A stretch of DNA of 32,783 nt from Chloroflexales bacterium (GTDB taxonomy: Bacteria; Chloroflexota; Chloroflexia; Chloroflexales; Chloroflexaceae). A program made the position numbers and the translations under genes. Positions 2,702-27,649 of the stretch are shown piece after piece. The DNA is taken from positions 1 through 32,783 of the forward strand of contig JAKSDJ010000741.1 in the NCBI GenBank assembly GCA_022360155.1. Direction: 5' to 3'. Within the stretch, counting starts at the first letter, position 1; each line of letters begins with the position of its first letter. Below the pieces are notes generated by a model. That model made no database searches, was not told where the DNA came from, and was given only the letters and a program-made list of their open reading frames with translations.

Positions 2702-2787
2702 AGTGTATGGCTGAACGACTATATCGAACCGAATCGATTGTGCTAGTGTATGGCTGAACGACTATATCGAACCGAATCGATTGTGCT
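2702..2787 (+). repeat. Exact 43-bp tandem duplication over the recO start
   Basis: Bases 2702-2744 are repeated exactly at 2745-2787, head to tail. Each copy holds the first 12 codons and part of the thirteenth of recO with its ATG (2707 and 2750). Since 43 is not a multiple of three, the first ATG runs out of frame: it reads 16 codons (the recO N-terminus followed by LVYG) and stops at TGA 2755-2757, just inside the second copy. The functional recO start is therefore the second ATG. Confidence 0.95.
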
Positions 2788-3499
2788 GCGGCGGAGCGAC
2801 TTTAGCGAGTCCGACCGTCTGATCTTGCTGGCAACGCCGCTGGGCAAACGGCGGGTCGTTGCGAAAGGCGTGCGCAAAACCATGAGCCGTCTCGCAGGAC
2901 ATGTCGAGTTGTTCACCCATAACACCATGTTGCTCGCGCTCGGTCGCAATCTGGATATTATCACTCAGAGTCAGACGATCCACGGGTTCAGCTCGCTCCG
3001 CTCCGACTTGGCGCGTATAAGCTGCGCCTACTATGTAGCCGACGTGTATGACCAGTTCACCCAGGAAGAAGAAGAGAATCGTCCGCTATTCGAATTGCTC
3101 GTGCAGGTTTTCGATGGCTTGAACACCAGGAATAATACCGATCTCGCGCTGCGTTGGTATGAGCTACACATACTTCACCAAACAGGGTATCGTCCGCAGT
3201 TGCACTACTGCGCCGTATGCCAGGAAGCGCTGACCGAAGAAGCGAATCGCTTCAGCCCCACAATAGGCGGAGTATTATGCCCGCGTGATGCACAAGCCGA
3301 CCGCACGGCCTTGCCAATGGGAAATGCATGCTTTCGGCTGCTCCGTTATTTGCAGAGCCAGCCGCTTGAAATTGTCGACACGATGACGATCTCGGCAACG
3401 GTGCGCGCTGAAGCCGAGCGCTTGTTGCGGACCTATGTCCGGTATATCATCGAGCGCGATCTTAAATCGGTGACGTTCCTGAACTCACTCCGAACGTAA
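2750..3499 (+). CDS. recO: DNA repair protein RecO
   Basis: Protein of 249 residues, the normal length for RecO, which loads RecA with RecR in RecF-pathway recombinational repair and anneals SSB-coated DNA. The N-terminal OB-fold signature is clear (residues 1-80: ESIVLRRSDFSESDRL, then RRVVAKGVRKTMSR), followed by the helical domain. The zinc-finger region has Cys154, Cys157 and Cys177; the usual fourth Cys position (180) is Asp, so zinc may be absent or bound differently. The start lies in the second copy of the 43-bp duplication; its former upstream signals now precede the first copy, so initiation may depend on coupling to the 16-codon decoy frame, whose TGA sits just after this ATG. No SD is visible immediately upstream. 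Confidence 0.9.
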   Translation: MAERLYRTESIVLRRSDFSESDRLILLATPLGKRRVVAKGVRKTMSRLAGHVELFTHNTMLLALGRNLDIITQSQTIHGFSSLRSDLARISCAYYVADVYDQFTQEEEENRPLFELLVQVFDGLNTRNNTDLALRWYELHILHQTGYRPQLHYCAVCQEALTEEANRFSPTIGGVLCPRDAQADRTALPMGNACFRLLRYLQSQPLEIVDTMTISATVRAEAERLLRTYVRYIIERDLKSVTFLNSLRT

Positions 3500-11506: not shown

Positions 11507-11625
11507 TTGCCCAGTGGAAAATAATGAGGCATTCTACGTTTGCTGCGCCGAGCACCAAGTTTCGCGGGAGCAAGGATTGCAAGAGCCGTAGATCTGCTAA
11601 CCCCTTTGGCGGGCAAAATTGGCGC

Positions 11626-11653: not shown

Positions 11654-11780
11654 ACAACGCAGGTGTCGGAGGCGCCACAAGGATCCTAGTCGCAACACAA
11701 GAACATCACGCATACAACTCACCCAACGTCAGGCCACCATTGTCCTGTTTCTTATTCAGGTCAGCGCTGAAACAATCTCT

Positions 11781-11940
11781 CTAAGAGGCTGTCTGAAAAG
11801 GGGTATGGAATGCGGCAGCCATGCTGCCGCGCGCAAGCACGGCTTGCGCATTCCACATGTTGACGTGCTGATGCTCCGCTCCATCCCAGTTTGTGATCCC
11901 GTTCTTGCCGGGTCAAACGGCTTTTCAGACAGCTTCTAAG
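11781..11940. mobile_element. 155-bp MITE with 15-bp inverted ends and CTAAG target duplication
   Basis: The direct repeat CTAAG stands at 11781-11785 and 11936-11940. Inside it, AGGCTGTCTGAAAAG (11786-11800) and CTTTTCAGACAGCTT (11921-11935) are inverted ends matching at 14 of 15 positions. The interior has no gene; it contains a cloverleaf of GGAATGCG...CGCATTCC enclosing two hairpins (GCGGCAGC/GCTGCCGC and CGCAAGC/GCTTGCG). One CTAAG plus the element is 155 bp, and removing exactly that rejoins the STAS frame. The ends resemble those of DDE-transposase insertion sequences, so it was probably mobilised in trans by a related element elsewhere in the genome. Confidence 0.88.
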
Positions 11941-12899
11941 CTATTTTGCATTGATTGCGCCACAGTCAAGTGTGCTGCGACGGTTAATTGTCGGTGCGCC
12001 TGCTGTTATCATTCTTTTCATCGCCTATCTGCGCGGCTGGGAAACAGCCAGCTATCTCAATCTTCTCATTCTTACTGGGCTTGTTGTTGGTCCATTCATT
12101 ACACCAGCAACCGATCGCTCTTTCTCACCAGTATCATTCTTGCCGGTGGCGCTCACTGTTGTTATGGCCCGTCCGCGTTGGGTGCTCATTATTGCGGTCG
12201 CGATCATTCTTGCTGCTGCGCTCGGAGGGAGTTGGCCGTACATGCGGGTCGACAACCTCATCGTTTATTTTGCCTGTGTTGGCAGTATCTATGTCGGCGC
12301 CTTGATAGCAGATCAGACACGCCAACGCCTTGAAACACAGCGTGAAACGTTCCACGCAGCACACATGCGCGCCGAACAGCAAGCGCAAGAAAATGCGCAG
12401 CAGGCGGCGATCCTTGCAGAACAAACAGCACGCCAGCAACAACTCATCAATACTATTCAACTCCTTGAAATTCCCATCACCACCGTCGCTGATGGCGTTT
12501 TCCTTGCATCGTTCGTCGGCGCCTTCGACGAACAACGCACTCAGGCAGCGAGTAGCCAGATTCTCAGTGCAGTCTACAGCCAAAAGTCCCGGTTGATCAT
12601 ACGCGACATTGCCGGAATCACGCTTCTTGAGCGGGATCTTACCGAGCGGCTGCTCAGGATAAGCCCAAAGTATTCGCTTACTAGGCTGCCAGGTGGCGCT
12701 GAGCGGGATCTCAGCCACAATGTCGCAGGAGTTGATTAGCGCCAAGCTTTCCTTTGCAGGAGTTCACACGACTCGTGCAGTGCAAGACGCCCTCCGCTTA
12801 CTCCCGTCGCAGAGACTCTTCAGCGCTACAGAAGCCACCCCGCAAGTTTGGTGATGCATAGCGCTGGAGGCGTGAACACGACGGCAAGACTGCACGGGC

Positions 12900-22673: not shown

Positions 22674-23471
22674 TCAGATGAGCGGGTCAATGGTACATCG
22701 CTCCACTTCCATCCATTGCTGGCCGGGAGCTTCCAACAAGCCCCAGCCAAGCCGCCCTTGAGGTGTAACGATCAGGTACTGGTTGTCCAGCCACATGACG
22801 AAGGAGAGCGGGCCGCCAGGCGATGGCGCGTGTTCGAGCACCGCCCTGCCATCGACGCGAAAAGAGGATTGCTGTTCGCCCCATTCGATTTCGTAGGTGT
22901 GCCATTCGGTCATCGTCGCCGGTACGATTGCTTCGCGAATGCCAATTGTGTGCTGAATGAGCGACCAGAAACCGCGATAGAGCGGCGTAACCTGCATCAG
23001 CAAGACTGCCAGCGGCGCAATGGGCAGTAGCGCCAGAGCCCCCGGGCGTTGAGTGTCGATTGTGGCGGCTTTCCAACCATAACCAGGCGTGTGTAGATCG
23101 AGACGCATGTTTGCTGGCGGGGAAGCGTAGAAGAACCAGATTGCACGGGGCAGGCGGGGTAAACGACGCTCGGATACGATGAAGGGGTAGTTCCAGAAGC
23201 CAAAACCGGCGGTGCCGCGCAGCTCCCCAGAAGGTAAGGAAAAGCGCGCCCGCACATTTAGTCGCAGCGGGGAGCGCCGGATCAAACGTTGACCCGGACG
23301 CACCCCGTAATCATCAAGCTGCGCATCGCTGTATTGCTGAGTTGTTGTGTCGTTGGTGACGAAGCGCAGCACAGCGCCGGTTTCCTCCAATGCGGCATTG
23401 CCCAAAATGTAGCGCCGCCAGCGGATCACCGGCTCTGCACTCAAGTCTTCCATCATCGCTCCGCGACTCAC
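22674..23471 (-). CDS. Concanavalin A-like lectin/GH16-fold protein coupled to ileS
   Basis: Protein of 265 residues from GTG 23471 (259 or 260 from the ATGs at 23456 and 23453). The segment WHTYEIEWGEQQSSFRVDG followed by a WLDNQYLIVTP strand is the beta-sandwich signature of GH16-type and LamG-like domains, where a ligand or sugar packs on the sheet; an early GFGFWNYPF segment fits the same fold. The GH16 catalytic ExDxE motif is not visible, so hydrolysis is doubtful. No signal peptide is seen. GTG 23469-23471 overlaps the ileS TGA 23468-23470 (GTGA), so it is translated by coupling; it is a rare partner for ileS. Function unknown. Confidence 0.6.
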   Translation of the reverse strand: MSRGAMMEDLSAEPVIRWRRYILGNAALEETGAVLRFVTNDTTTQQYSDAQLDDYGVRPGQRLIRRSPLRLNVRARFSLPSGELRGTAGFGFWNYPFIVSERRLPRLPRAIWFFYASPPANMRLDLHTPGYGWKAATIDTQRPGALALLPIAPLAVLLMQVTPLYRGFWSLIQHTIGIREAIVPATMTEWHTYEIEWGEQQSSFRVDGRAVLEHAPSPGGPLSFVMWLDNQYLIVTPQGRLGWGLLEAPGQQWMEVERCTIDPLI

Positions 23472-26400
23472 CCCTCTTGCTTGACAATCCCCAAGCTTGC
23501 TTCGCCTTCGCCCGTCTCGATGTTCTCGACGTAGGCAGCGGCGGGGGGAGGAACAAGCACCAGATCGGTTGCCAGTGTCTCCGCCTTGATGTAATCGCCC
23601 CAGGTCGCAACAACATCGCGCAGAAAGCCGCCATTGACCGCAGCGCCATCCACAAAGAGTGCGATCCGGTCGCTGATCGCCAGGCCGGCGCTTTTACGCG
23701 CGTCTTGCACATTACGGACCAGATCGCGCGCTGCACCCTCCAGGCGCAATTCCGCCGTGATGTTCGTGTTGAGCGCAACGAGCAGGCCATCGCCCTCGGC
23801 CACGGCAAAACCGGCGGGCGCGCTCGATTCGACTAGAACCTCGTCGGGCTGCAACTCCACAGACTGGCCATCTACAGTTAGGCTGATCGCTTGACCAGCC
23901 TCGACCGCGTGAGCCATCGCCCGGGCGCGCTCGCCGCTCGCTTCGCGCAGTGCCGCCGTTAGCGCCGGAACGAGCTTGCCAAACTTCTTGCCAACCGCGC
24001 GCAAGTTTGGGCGGAAGCGATATTCCACAAAGTCAGACGATGCAGCCAGGTATCGCACCGTTTTGATGTTCAGCTCATCGGCGAGTTCCGCTTCGAAGCG
24101 ACGCAGTCCTTCGACATCAGACTGGGTGCTCGCGCGGACCCATATTTCGCTCAGGGGCTGGCGTACCTTCAGGTTAGCGTTCTTGCGTGCGGCGCGCCCC
24201 AACGAGACCACGCGCAGAAGCACCTCGGCGTCAGCGACAAGTCGATCATCGATCATGCTGACAGCGGCCTCGGGCCAACGCGCTAGATGCACGCTCTCCG
24301 CGGCTGTAGCGTCCGCATCGGTCACCAGGTTGCGGTAGATCGTCTCGCTGACGAAGGGCGTGAATGGCGCCATCAGCTTGGCGACGGTGACCAGGCAGGT
24401 GTAGAGCGTGCTATAGGCAGCCTGTTTGTCAATATCGGCCTCGCTCTTCCAGAAGCGCCGCCGGTTGCGACGCACATACCAGTTCGACAGTTCGTCGACA
24501 AAATACTCGATCTCTCGGGCGGCTGTGGTCACGTCGTAGTTTTCGAGGCTGGCCGTCACATCGCGCACCAGGCCGTGCAAGCGCGCCAGCGCCCAGCGGT
24601 CAATCGGCTGGAGATGCGGGTCAGACGCCGAGAGTTGGGATGCCACGTTCAGCTCTGCCGGGCTCCAAGAGTCGAGATTGGCGTAGGTCACAAAGAATGC
24701 ATACGTGTTCCAGAGCGTCAGCAGGAACTTGCGCAGACTCTCGCCAACCAGCCCGCTACTGAAGCGGCGCGGGTTACCGGGCGGGCTCGCCGTGAACAAG
24801 TACCAGCGCAGCGCATCGACACCGTGCTCGTCAATCACGCTCTGCGGCGTCACCACATTGCCGCGACTCTTGCTCATCTTCTGGCCTTCAGCGTCGAGGA
24901 TGTGCCCCAGGCAGATCACATTCTTGAACGCCGGCTTGTTGAAGAGCAGTGTGCTGATCGCGTGCAGAGTATAAAACCAGCCCCGAGTTTGATCAACCGC
25001 CTCGCAGATATAGTCAGCAGGATGGGCCGATGTGAAGCTGCCGGCGTTCTCGAAGGGATAATGCAACTGCGCCACCGGCATAGCGCCACTGTCAAACCAG
25101 CAGTCGGCCACATCGGGGATGCGGCGCATAACGCCGTGCGCCGGATCTTCCCAAGTCACCTCATCGACATAGGGGCGGTGCAGATCCAGGTCTTGCAGCG
25201 AGCGCCCGGTCTTCTGTTCCAGTTCAGCTAGACTGCCTACACACTCCATGTAGCCGTCGTCGGCAACCCAGATGGGCAGCGGCGTGCCCCAATAACGCTC
25301 GCGGCTGATGGCCCAGTCAATGTTGTTTTCAAGCCAGTTGCCGAAGCGCCCGTCGCGGATATGTTCCGGAACCCAGTGGATCTGCTGGTTATTGTTTATC
25401 AATTCCTGCTTGAACGCCGTCGTCCGAATATACCACGAACGCTTGGCATAATAGAGCAGCGGCGTGCCGCAGCGCCAGCAGAAAGGATAATTGTGGCGCA
25501 CGCGCCCGCTCTTGAGCAGTAATCCCCGCTGCCGCAAGTTGCTGGTGATATCGGGATCGGCCTCTTTGAAGAACTTGCCGCCAAACCCTAACTCACCGAA
25601 CTCAGACAGCACTTCGCCGCTCAGGTCTACCGAGAAGAGCGTGGGCAGGCCGTACTTACGCCCAACCTCCAGGTCGCCGTAGGCCGGAGCGATATGCACA
25701 ATGCCGGCGCCGTCTTCCAGGCTGACGAAATCGTCGGCGATGACCTGATACGCCGCGCCCCAATCCACCGTGTCGCCGGGAGCGGGCACGCCATCGAAGA
25801 GGTTCTGGTAACGCAGACCGACAAGTTCGCTTCCGGTGAAGGTACGCGCGATCGTCGTCCCGTCGCCAAGCACAGCAGCAACGAGCGCAACAGCCATGAT
25901 CAATTGTTCGTCACCATACTGGATCAGGCCATACTCAGCGTCGGGCTTGACCGCCAGCGCCACGTTGGCCGGCAGCGTCCAGGGCGTTGTGGTCCAAGCG
26001 ATAAAGCTCGCCCCAGCCAGATCGGCAGCCAACGGGTGCGCATTGCCGTCGTCCGGCCCCTTGACCCGGAACCTAACCCAAACGCTGGGATCGTCCACGT
26101 CGTCTTGGAAGCCCAGGCTGACTTCGTGGTCACTGAGACTCGTGCCACAGCGCGGACAATGCATCGTCACTTTGTAGTCGCGAAACAGCAACCCCTGATC
26201 CCAGAACTGCCGGAAGATCCACCACAGCGACTCGATATAACTATTTTCATAGGTAATATAGGCATCTTCGCTCAACCAGAATGCAATACGTTTGGTGAAA
26301 ACTTTCCATTCCTGAATATAACGCCAAACGCTCTCGCGGCACTTCGCGTTGAACTCGGCAATGCCATAACGCTCAATATCGGGCTTGCCGCGAAAGCCTA

Positions 26401-26695
26401 ACTCTTTCTCGACCTCGATCTCGACGGGGAGGCCGTGAGTATCCCAACCCTCACGCCGCCCGAAGATGCGATAACCTTGCATCGAACGATAGCGCAGAAT
26501 AATGTCTTTGAACGTGCGGCTAATCACGTGGTGCAAGCCAGGTCGTCCATTTGAAGTTGGCGGGCCTTCGTAGAACACAAAGGGCTTATCGCCGGACTGG
26601 AGCGACTTTTCGACAACATGATTCGCCTGCCACCACTCCAGAACTTCTTCTTCCAGCCTCGGAAATGCAACATTCGTTTCAACCGATTTGAACAT
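23468..26695 (-). CDS. ileS: Isoleucyl-tRNA synthetase, IleRS2-like, with GXHH signature
   Basis: Protein of 1075 residues, charging tRNA-Ile. The class I HIGH motif reads PGLHH (Gly53-Leu54-His55-His56) instead of PHxGH. KMSKS is intact (606-610, EGQKMSKSRGN). The CP1 editing domain has TTTPWTLPANVAL (235-247), which hydrolyses mischarged Val. The catalytic core (GWDTHGLPVEIEVEKELG) and the two CxxC zinc-type knuckles (HCPRCGTSLSDHE, FCWRCGTPLLYY) match the Thermus-type IleRS. ATG 26695 is preceded by TGGAG eight bases upstream, whereas ATG 26707 has no SD; the ATGGAG of the latter provides it. Transcription is controlled by a T-box leader. The following gene overlaps by four bases. Confidence 0.95.
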   Translation of the reverse strand: MFKSVETNVAFPRLEEEVLEWWQANHVVEKSLQSGDKPFVFYEGPPTSNGRPGLHHVISRTFKDIILRYRSMQGYRIFGRREGWDTHGLPVEIEVEKELGFRGKPDIERYGIAEFNAKCRESVWRYIQEWKVFTKRIAFWLSEDAYITYENSYIESLWWIFRQFWDQGLLFRDYKVTMHCPRCGTSLSDHEVSLGFQDDVDDPSVWVRFRVKGPDDGNAHPLAADLAGASFIAWTTTPWTLPANVALAVKPDAEYGLIQYGDEQLIMAVALVAAVLGDGTTIARTFTGSELVGLRYQNLFDGVPAPGDTVDWGAAYQVIADDFVSLEDGAGIVHIAPAYGDLEVGRKYGLPTLFSVDLSGEVLSEFGELGFGGKFFKEADPDITSNLRQRGLLLKSGRVRHNYPFCWRCGTPLLYYAKRSWYIRTTAFKQELINNNQQIHWVPEHIRDGRFGNWLENNIDWAISRERYWGTPLPIWVADDGYMECVGSLAELEQKTGRSLQDLDLHRPYVDEVTWEDPAHGVMRRIPDVADCWFDSGAMPVAQLHYPFENAGSFTSAHPADYICEAVDQTRGWFYTLHAISTLLFNKPAFKNVICLGHILDAEGQKMSKSRGNVVTPQSVIDEHGVDALRWYLFTASPPGNPRRFSSGLVGESLRKFLLTLWNTYAFFVTYANLDSWSPAELNVASQLSASDPHLQPIDRWALARLHGLVRDVTASLENYDVTTAAREIEYFVDELSNWYVRRNRRRFWKSEADIDKQAAYSTLYTCLVTVAKLMAPFTPFVSETIYRNLVTDADATAAESVHLARWPEAAVSMIDDRLVADAEVLLRVVSLGRAARKNANLKVRQPLSEIWVRASTQSDVEGLRRFEAELADELNIKTVRYLAASSDFVEYRFRPNLRAVGKKFGKLVPALTAALREASGERARAMAHAVEAGQAISLTVDGQSVELQPDEVLVESSAPAGFAVAEGDGLLVALNTNITAELRLEGAARDLVRNVQDARKSAGLAISDRIALFVDGAAVNGGFLRDVVATWGDYIKAETLATDLVLVPPPAAAYVENIETGEGEASLGIVKQEG

Positions 26696-26725
26696 ACAGT
26701 ACTCCATTTTGTGATTAGAGATGAG

Positions 26726-26817
26726 AGGTTGTCTGAAAAAGGCAGATTGGCAGTACTTCAGCCATCTGGAATCTCATCTAACATCGCATAGCTCTCTTCT
26801 TTTGACGCTGACAACCT
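26726..26817. mobile_element. Possible 92-bp MITE remnant in the ileS leader
   Basis: AGGTTGTCTGAAAAAGG (26726-26742) resembles the inverted end of the MITE at 11786 (AGGCTGTCTGAAAAG). The other end shows GACAACCT at 26810-26817, its 8-base reverse complement, next to CTTTTGACG. No target duplication is clear. It sits between the T-box terminator and the ileS start codon. Confidence 0.4.
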
Positions 26818-26829
26818 ATCGAGATCAAT

Positions 26830-26859
26830 AAAAAAACCTCGCCCCTAACAGGGACGAGG
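26830..26859 (-). terminator. T-box-controlled intrinsic terminator
   Basis: Nine-pair stem with one G-T wobble, loop TGTTA-like, and a run of seven Ts on the minus strand, mutually exclusive with the T-box antiterminator. Confidence 0.9.
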
Positions 26860-27087
26860 ACGAACCTCGCGGTACCACCCCGCTTCAACCAACATCTGAT
26901 GCTCGAATTCGGCTAGTAGATTTCAGATTGGCTCTCTATCCAATCCAAAATCACTCATCCAAATCTCAGTTGGTTACACTCGGTGAGGATCGAAAATCCT
27001 CTGTCCTGGTAACGGTGGACAAAACCGGATGGAACTACTAGATTTACGTCACATACAACATAACACGTCATAACCGTTGCGCATATA
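26830..27087 (-). ncRNA. T-box riboswitch (leader of ileS)
   Basis: The minus strand holds the conserved T-box GGGGTGGTACCGCG (26868-26881), which pairs with the NCCA end of uncharged tRNA. Stem I begins with CTAGTAG and closes with CTACTAG (26912-26918 on the minus strand); the 3' side of the specifier loop reads ATC-T-GAA, so the proposed specifier codon is ATC (Ile) at 26926-26928, consistent with the downstream gene. Stem I also contains a GAGGAT/ATCCTC hairpin. The terminator stem CCTCGTCCC/GGGGCGAGG lies at 26837-26859, followed by seven Ts (26830-26836). Low charged tRNA-Ile would favour the antiterminator and raise ileS expression. Confidence 0.93.
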
Positions 27088-27093
27088 TTACGG

Positions 27094-27099
27094 ATTATA
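27094..27099 (-). promoter_or_regulatory. -10 box of the ileS T-box transcript
   Basis: Minus-strand TATAAT just upstream of the T-box leader. The -35 region (GCGAAC at 17 bases) is weak. Confidence 0.5.
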
Positions 27100-27119
27100 T
27101 CGTATGTTTATGTATCGTT

Positions 27120-27649
27120 CGCTCACCAGCTCCGAGGTGATATTCTGTGTGGCTCGACCTGCCTGGCTTCCACTGTCCCAGGTTCGCTAGCGGCGATTAC
27201 ACACATACTCGTCCTCATCATCGCCTTTGGCCTAAGTATAACAATCCCGTACAGAGCCGTCAAGAATTGCAAGTACAGCACAGACAAACCAGATGGACAT
27301 GAGGCTCTCACAAGTATTTGTTCTTGCCGGCAATCCTCATCGAAGTCCTAGTCAGGTTGGCGACAAGCGCTGCCGGGTAATTTTCCCATCGCAATCGGGC
27401 AAGATACCCCATATGCGCTGCAACGTTTTCTCCTAGAAACAACTCGGGCGCATACACTACAATCTATTTTATTTAATAGCCACTTTATAGTACTACAACG
27501 AGACTTCCCGACACACCTCGTTGGAACGCCATCGAACATGTCACCCTGAGCGTCGCGAAGGGTCTCGCACCCGCTTCCCAGGAGATTCGTCACGTCGTGC
27601 AGCATGACATGGCGCGTTGTAGTAATAGAACGAGTATCCGGAGGAAATT
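27120..27649. other. Gene-poor stretch upstream of the small membrane peptide
   Basis: About 530 bases with no gene that I can support on either strand; the longest frames have no SD or family motif. It contains TCACCCTGAGCG...GAAGGGTCTC (27541-27566), a dispersed-repeat-like palindromic sequence with ACCCT/AGGGT arms, and an AT-rich patch near 27470-27495. Confidence 0.45.

Follow-up and report, generated by a model that had tools for sequence, protein, structure and literature searches.

What is the short, strongly folded stretch of DNA that divides a STAS-domain gene in this Chloroflexales genome, and by what route did it arrive there? The window (the whole stretch of DNA that was analysed, 32,783 nucleotides) is contig 320 of an 8.93-Mb draft assembly in 1048 contigs. 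The insert is very probably a non-autonomous MITE of the IS5 family (IS1031 type) that carries a REPIN-like cargo. The features of the locus are as follows.

11712–11781, plus strand: 5′ piece of the STAS gene, with ATA where relatives have ATG (alignment with 24 homologues).
11782–11784, no strand: left copy of the target site duplication TAA; the trinucleotide TNA, with N free, lies outside 91 of 94 ends in the own genome.
11785–11936, plus strand: MITE, 152 bp, non-coding, with IS5/IS1031-type ends; 45 matches in the own genome, with ends and flanks compared across copies.
11785–11800, plus strand: left terminal inverted repeat, GAGGCTGTCTGAAAAG, 16 bp, identical to the left end of the IS at locus L177 of a related genome.
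11807–11830, plus strand: REP-like palindrome 1, GGAATGCGGCAGCCATGCTGCCGC; 93 occurrences in the own genome by pattern search, none for the control.
11831–11854, minus strand: REP-like palindrome 2, GGAATGCGCAAGCCGTGCTTGCGC, forming an inverted doublet with palindrome 1 (pairing and covariation).
11855–11920, plus strand: right arm of the MITE; a divergent right arm with its REP directly follows the stop codon of a RAYT gene on contig C971 (80% identity over 127 bp).
11921–11936, minus strand: right terminal inverted repeat, GAAGCTGTCTGAAAAG, 16 bp, identical to the right end of the L177 IS.
11937–11939, no strand: right copy of the target site duplication TAA, from flanks compared across copies.
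11940–12660, plus strand: middle piece of the STAS gene, 30–35% identical to intact homologues.
12663–12854, plus strand: 3′ end of the STAS gene in another frame, following a second lesion, a frameshift near 12660.

The interrupted gene has homologues in 67 of the 82 genomes searched in the order; these were found by the genome search, and a contig search with the STAS piece as query gave no confirmed relative. The STAS domain lies at the C-terminus (PF01740, E 2.3e-15 in a homologue), and the homologues examined are mostly about 311–330 amino acids long from the first likely methionine. At their N-termini (M.LTQRQ...), the homologues match the piece that precedes the MITE and pass straight into the piece after it, in one frame and with no residue missing or extra at the joint. 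The sequence-only reading had predicted that removal of 155 bp would restore a single frame, and the two halves do join in one frame; the homologues lack the insert, and the element itself is 152 bp. The 359 codons that it proposed require a TTG start at 11619, whereas a start at the ATA codon (11712), the position at which relatives begin, gives a product of about 329 amino acids. With ATA in place of ATG, the MITE insertion and the frameshift near 12660, the STAS gene bears up to three lesions and most likely is a pseudogene; it was probably decaying apart from the MITE. The single-base frameshift near 12660 could be an assembly error.

The insert belongs to a multicopy family. BLAST returned 45 matches to it in the own genome, at unrelated sites and up to 99% identical; the copies were read as separate stretches, and many are cut at contig ends, so the MITE accounts for a number of the contig breaks in the assembly. 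The 15-mer ends lie at 11786–11800 (AGGCTGTCTGAAAAG) and at 11921–11935 on the minus strand (AAGCTGTCTGAAAAG), and a genome search for such ends, which had been suggested beforehand, recovered 39 exact occurrences against none for the reversed control. At up to two mismatches, CTNAGARGCTGTCTGAAAAG has 164 sites in the own genome against one for the control. The copy number is at least about 40. The element is thus short, non-coding, bounded by 16-bp terminal inverted repeats and present in many copies, as a MITE is. No coding start was detected by pattern search beside the MITE end. A scan of genome contigs for the left end together with the start of the REP matched one Chloroflexales genome repeatedly; single matches in unrelated organisms, once each, were taken as chance. 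At locus L009 (G000:C384, positions 2004–2394), two MITE copies of different age lie about 85 bp apart, 98% and 71% identical to that in the window. A further candidate at 26726–26740 (AGGTTGTCTGAAAAA, preceded by TGAG), previously put forward as a likely remnant, was rejected: it is a lone half-end with two mismatches and no second end nearby, either a chance match or a solo decayed end.

Searches for known structured RNAs gave nothing credible at the Rfam gathering threshold over the window, nor over the MITE at a low threshold, and a tRNA search found none. Below the Rfam cut-off of 93, a T-box leader scores 79.3 bits (E 2e-17) at 26847–27230 on the minus strand, upstream of a class I tRNA synthetase gene (23468–26707, minus strand) whose product looks like isoleucyl-tRNA synthetase. 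Elsewhere in the window, two perfect 43-bp tandem copies at 2702–2787 overlap the start of a recO-like gene (2750–3499).

The motif CTAAG is found at both 11781–11785 and 11936–11940, and all five bases had at first been read as the target site duplication. Insertion of a MITE that splits the STAS gene is strongly supported by the multicopy family and the insert-free homologues, while the duplication proved shorter. Among MITE copies the contexts CTAAG, CTCAG, CTTAG and CTGAG are all seen, and a 5-bp duplication was rejected because the middle base varies among copies and the outer bases reflect preference only. Counting every end with a readable flank, TNA lies directly outside the GARG... 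end in 91 of 94 cases in the own genome and in 27 of 28 in relatives, and its N in the own genome is A in 31, T in 34, G in 17 and C in 12. At the position beyond TNA, C is preferred, making CTNAG the favoured context. Since TNA with a free N stands outside the ends across copies, the duplication here is TAA and the element is the 152 bp from 11785 to 11936; the outer C and G of CTAAG are explained by target preference and by the ends of the element. The 3-bp duplications match in 23 of 37 end pairs, with decayed and nested pairs and those at contig edges included in the count. Insertion at TNA with a 3-bp repeat is also documented for the IS1031 group of IS5 (PMC12016507), and the MITE has both the TNA target and the 3-bp direct repeat of that subgroup.

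An autonomous element with the same ends was found in a related genus. In genome G018, locus L177 holds an 865-bp IS between CTTA and TTAG, with TTA duplications and the ends GAGGCTGTCTGAAAAG...CTTTTCAGACAGCTTC, which match both MITE ends base for base, down to the G/A difference that distinguishes the left end from the right. Its transposase scores 240 bits against NF033580 (transpos_IS5_3; cut-off 110) and carries the Pfam domains DUF4096 and DDE_Tnp_1; the partner IS thus encodes an IS5-family DDE transposase. The own genome contains a relative of this IS (L067), whose transposase is 67% identical to that of L177 (NF033580, 201 bits, cut-off 110), whose ends are one or two mismatches away from those of the MITE and which has a TGA duplication. 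An IS whose ends agree exactly with those of the MITE did not turn up in the own genome, although a draft in 1048 contigs may miss one. The search for a transposase with the same ends, suggested beforehand, thus gave an exact partner in the related genus and a relative in the own genome. Placement in the IS1031 subgroup, which rests on the TNA target and on IS length, is best regarded as provisional. Members of this subgroup, such as ISLrh (857 bp, PMC12016507), and their derived MITEs resemble the present pair in the autonomous partner of about 860 bp, the inverted ends starting GA..CTGTCT, the TNA target, the 3-bp repeat and the IS5-family transposase. The MITE departs from the ISs of the subgroup in lacking a transposase gene and in carrying a REP-like doublet. 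Taken together, the multicopy family, the terminal inverted repeats, the target duplication, the IS with the same ends and the insert-free homologues strongly support the identification of 11785–11936 as an IS5-type MITE inside the STAS gene.

The interior of the MITE forms a cloverleaf, composed of the stem of the terminal inverted repeats and two adjacent inverted palindromes just inside the left end. The sequence-only reading had called this interior unusual, and the fold is indeed far beyond chance (DNA z −8.1, RNA z −6.4); what it had not recognised is the REP-like inverted doublet. In an alignment of 28 copies, 96.5% of pairs are kept and two-sided changes number 17, where shuffles give 5.1; pairing falls to 36–37% when the partner is slid by one base. 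Because a palindrome could also be swapped as a whole, pairing and covariation speak for the predicted structure and not for a function.

The palindrome itself is not confined to the MITE. Searches with the strict pattern gave 93 occurrences in the own genome and 87 in G025, which belongs to another family of the order, plus a few in each of G013 (a relative within the same family), G024 and G002; controls stayed at zero throughout. In the own genome, a MITE end is close to 56 of 63 palindrome clusters, a sample selected in part by way of the MITE. None of the 40 clusters examined in G025, G002 and G024 has one nearby (0 of 35 in G025), and in these genomes the palindrome occurs independently of the MITE. 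In G025, tandem units of about 110 bp made of REP-like palindromes, without MITE ends, occupy positions 800–1700 of locus L096 (G025:C3:1095000–1097500). Two REP types, GGARTGCGGCAGC and GGAGTGCCGGC, are found inside MITEs of different genera. A dispersed multicopy palindrome of 20–40 bp, arranged as a doublet in inverted orientation, is what characterises REPs and REPINs, and the interpretation of the interior as an inverted doublet of REP-like palindromes with REPIN architecture is well supported by these comparisons. The GTAG (or CGTC) tag at the hairpin base is absent from the MITE palindromes, which have GGAG or GGAA; GTAG was seen only in the RAYT-flanking REPs of G011.

REP-like palindromes lie beside a RAYT gene in two genomes, the own genome and, as a sister REP type, G011. 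One gene of the own genome, on contig C971, exceeds the curated RAYT cut-off (NF047646, 102.5 bits, cut-off 80); it has the motif NHYHF (HUH) in its sequence, and its only PDB match is 4ER8, TnpAREP. Upstream of this gene, GGARTCCGCAAGCCATGCTTGCGC is present twice within about 110 bp of the start, and downstream the stop codon marks the beginning of a decayed MITE copy that includes a REP, so that one of the three REPs at this RAYT sits in a decayed MITE copy. The ten other Y1-transposase (IS200-type) loci of the own genome have no such palindromes. In G011, which belongs to a different genus, a RAYT lies between arrays of inverted, GTAG-tagged GTAGTGCCGACTTTAGTCGGC doublets on both sides (L215, 700–2290; G011:C213). 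A RAYT flanked on both sides by arrays of REP doublets is called a REPtron (PMC3733652), and the G011 locus is by its sequence a REPtron in Chloroflexales. The MITE interior of the same genome, GGAGTGCCGGCTTTAGCCGGC, differs from GTAGTGCCGACTTTAGTCGGC at 3 of 21 positions, two of which form a compensating pair. The RAYT-like genes of G025, G013 and G002 do not reach the cut-off and have no such palindrome at their flanks; the REP type of the own genome was found at none of the RAYT-like loci of relatives, and G011 has the GTAG type. Overall, the REP identity of the palindromes is well supported on these sequence grounds, with the qualification that the MITE in the window lacks the canonical GTAG tag.

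The same observations bear on an alternative, in which the MITE is of the common IS5 type and its hairpins, unrelated to REPs or RAYTs, are products of chance or of drift in what was once an internally deleted IS. MITE interiors are often anonymous, the same ends occur with other interiors and the tag is not GTAG, all of which would fit. The palindromes, however, also occur away from MITE ends in G025, G002 and G024, they adjoin the one true RAYT gene of the own genome, and the MITE interior of G011 resembles the GTAG REPs on both sides of its RAYT, which makes this explanation unlikely.

Under the preferred explanation, a MITE with REPIN-like cargo inserted at a CTAAG target, duplicating TAA and interrupting the STAS-domain gene. 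Movement would depend on an IS5/IS1031 transposase that recognises the two 16-bp ends in trans and follows the usual DDE route. The REP doublet is most likely cargo that an ancestral MITE acquired from the RAYT/REP system of the lineage and that the DDE transposase has copied along since then. Two observations point this way: MITE ends and TNA contexts are present on nearly all copies, and elements exist that share the ends but lack the REP. One of these, L027_2184, has ends of this kind within a TTA duplication, and suggests that the REP is not needed for movement of the MITE; L056_1891 and L064_90 are less clean cases. A more elaborate version, to which we give only a small chance, is a chimera that uses DDE (IS5/IS1031) for jumping and HUH (RAYT) for the inner REP doublet. 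It is similarly doubtful that such a combination works through, for example, hairpins that aid amplification in replication or a MITE that spreads the REPs of its lineage, or that it is a recurrent arrangement in several Chloroflexales genera.

Much less probable still is that the REPIN is the active unit, moved by RAYT and inserted repeatedly into existing MITEs, with the IS5-type ends as bystanders. The two REP types inside MITEs of different genera are compatible with repeated entry; yet in nearly all own-genome copies the REPIN occupies one fixed position inside the left end, whole 152-bp copies are up to 99% identical with both arms included, and the duplications sit at the flanks of the whole element. 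The strong predicted fold also prompts the notion that the gene conserves these bases as a functional in-frame segment, or that they are a terminator or structured RNA evolved at the site; this can practically be dismissed in view of the roughly 40 copies at unrelated sites, the homologues without the insert, the lack of any Rfam family and a net length of 155 bases, which shifts the frame.

IS5-type MITEs and REPINs are each well known individually. We found no account of an IS5/IS1031 MITE that carries REPINs in the open-access literature searched, which is weak evidence of absence. Like the MITE interior, REPINs and REPtrons have two inverted REP hairpins, with the palindrome beside a RAYT (TnpAREP) gene as is seen in the own genome (PMC3116915; PMC8266576; PMC2817692); the MITE doublet differs in its GGAG or GGAA tag and in being enclosed in DDE-type ends and copied with them. 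The nearest nesting described in that literature is that of the GTAG-15 dimers of A. variabilis, which lie in long palindromes TATAGGA...TCCTATA and are thus also REP dimers nested in a larger inverted repeat (PMC3733652). The passage on these dimers mentions no transposase family or target duplication, and the palindrome was not seen there without the REP, whereas the ends, duplication and IS partner of the Chloroflexales MITE are identified. A close association of REPs with ISs is also seen in ISs inserted in REPs, such as ISPpu9 (PMC8450116); there the IS lies inside the REP, and here the REP lies inside the MITE.

The mechanism by which RAYTs disseminate REPs is still poorly understood (PMC8266576), and how REPs spread is an open question. 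A REP-carrying MITE would offer a second, RAYT-independent route of multiplication, and the MITE with its REP doublet may serve as a natural system in which a clear duplication signature lets the two routes be told apart.
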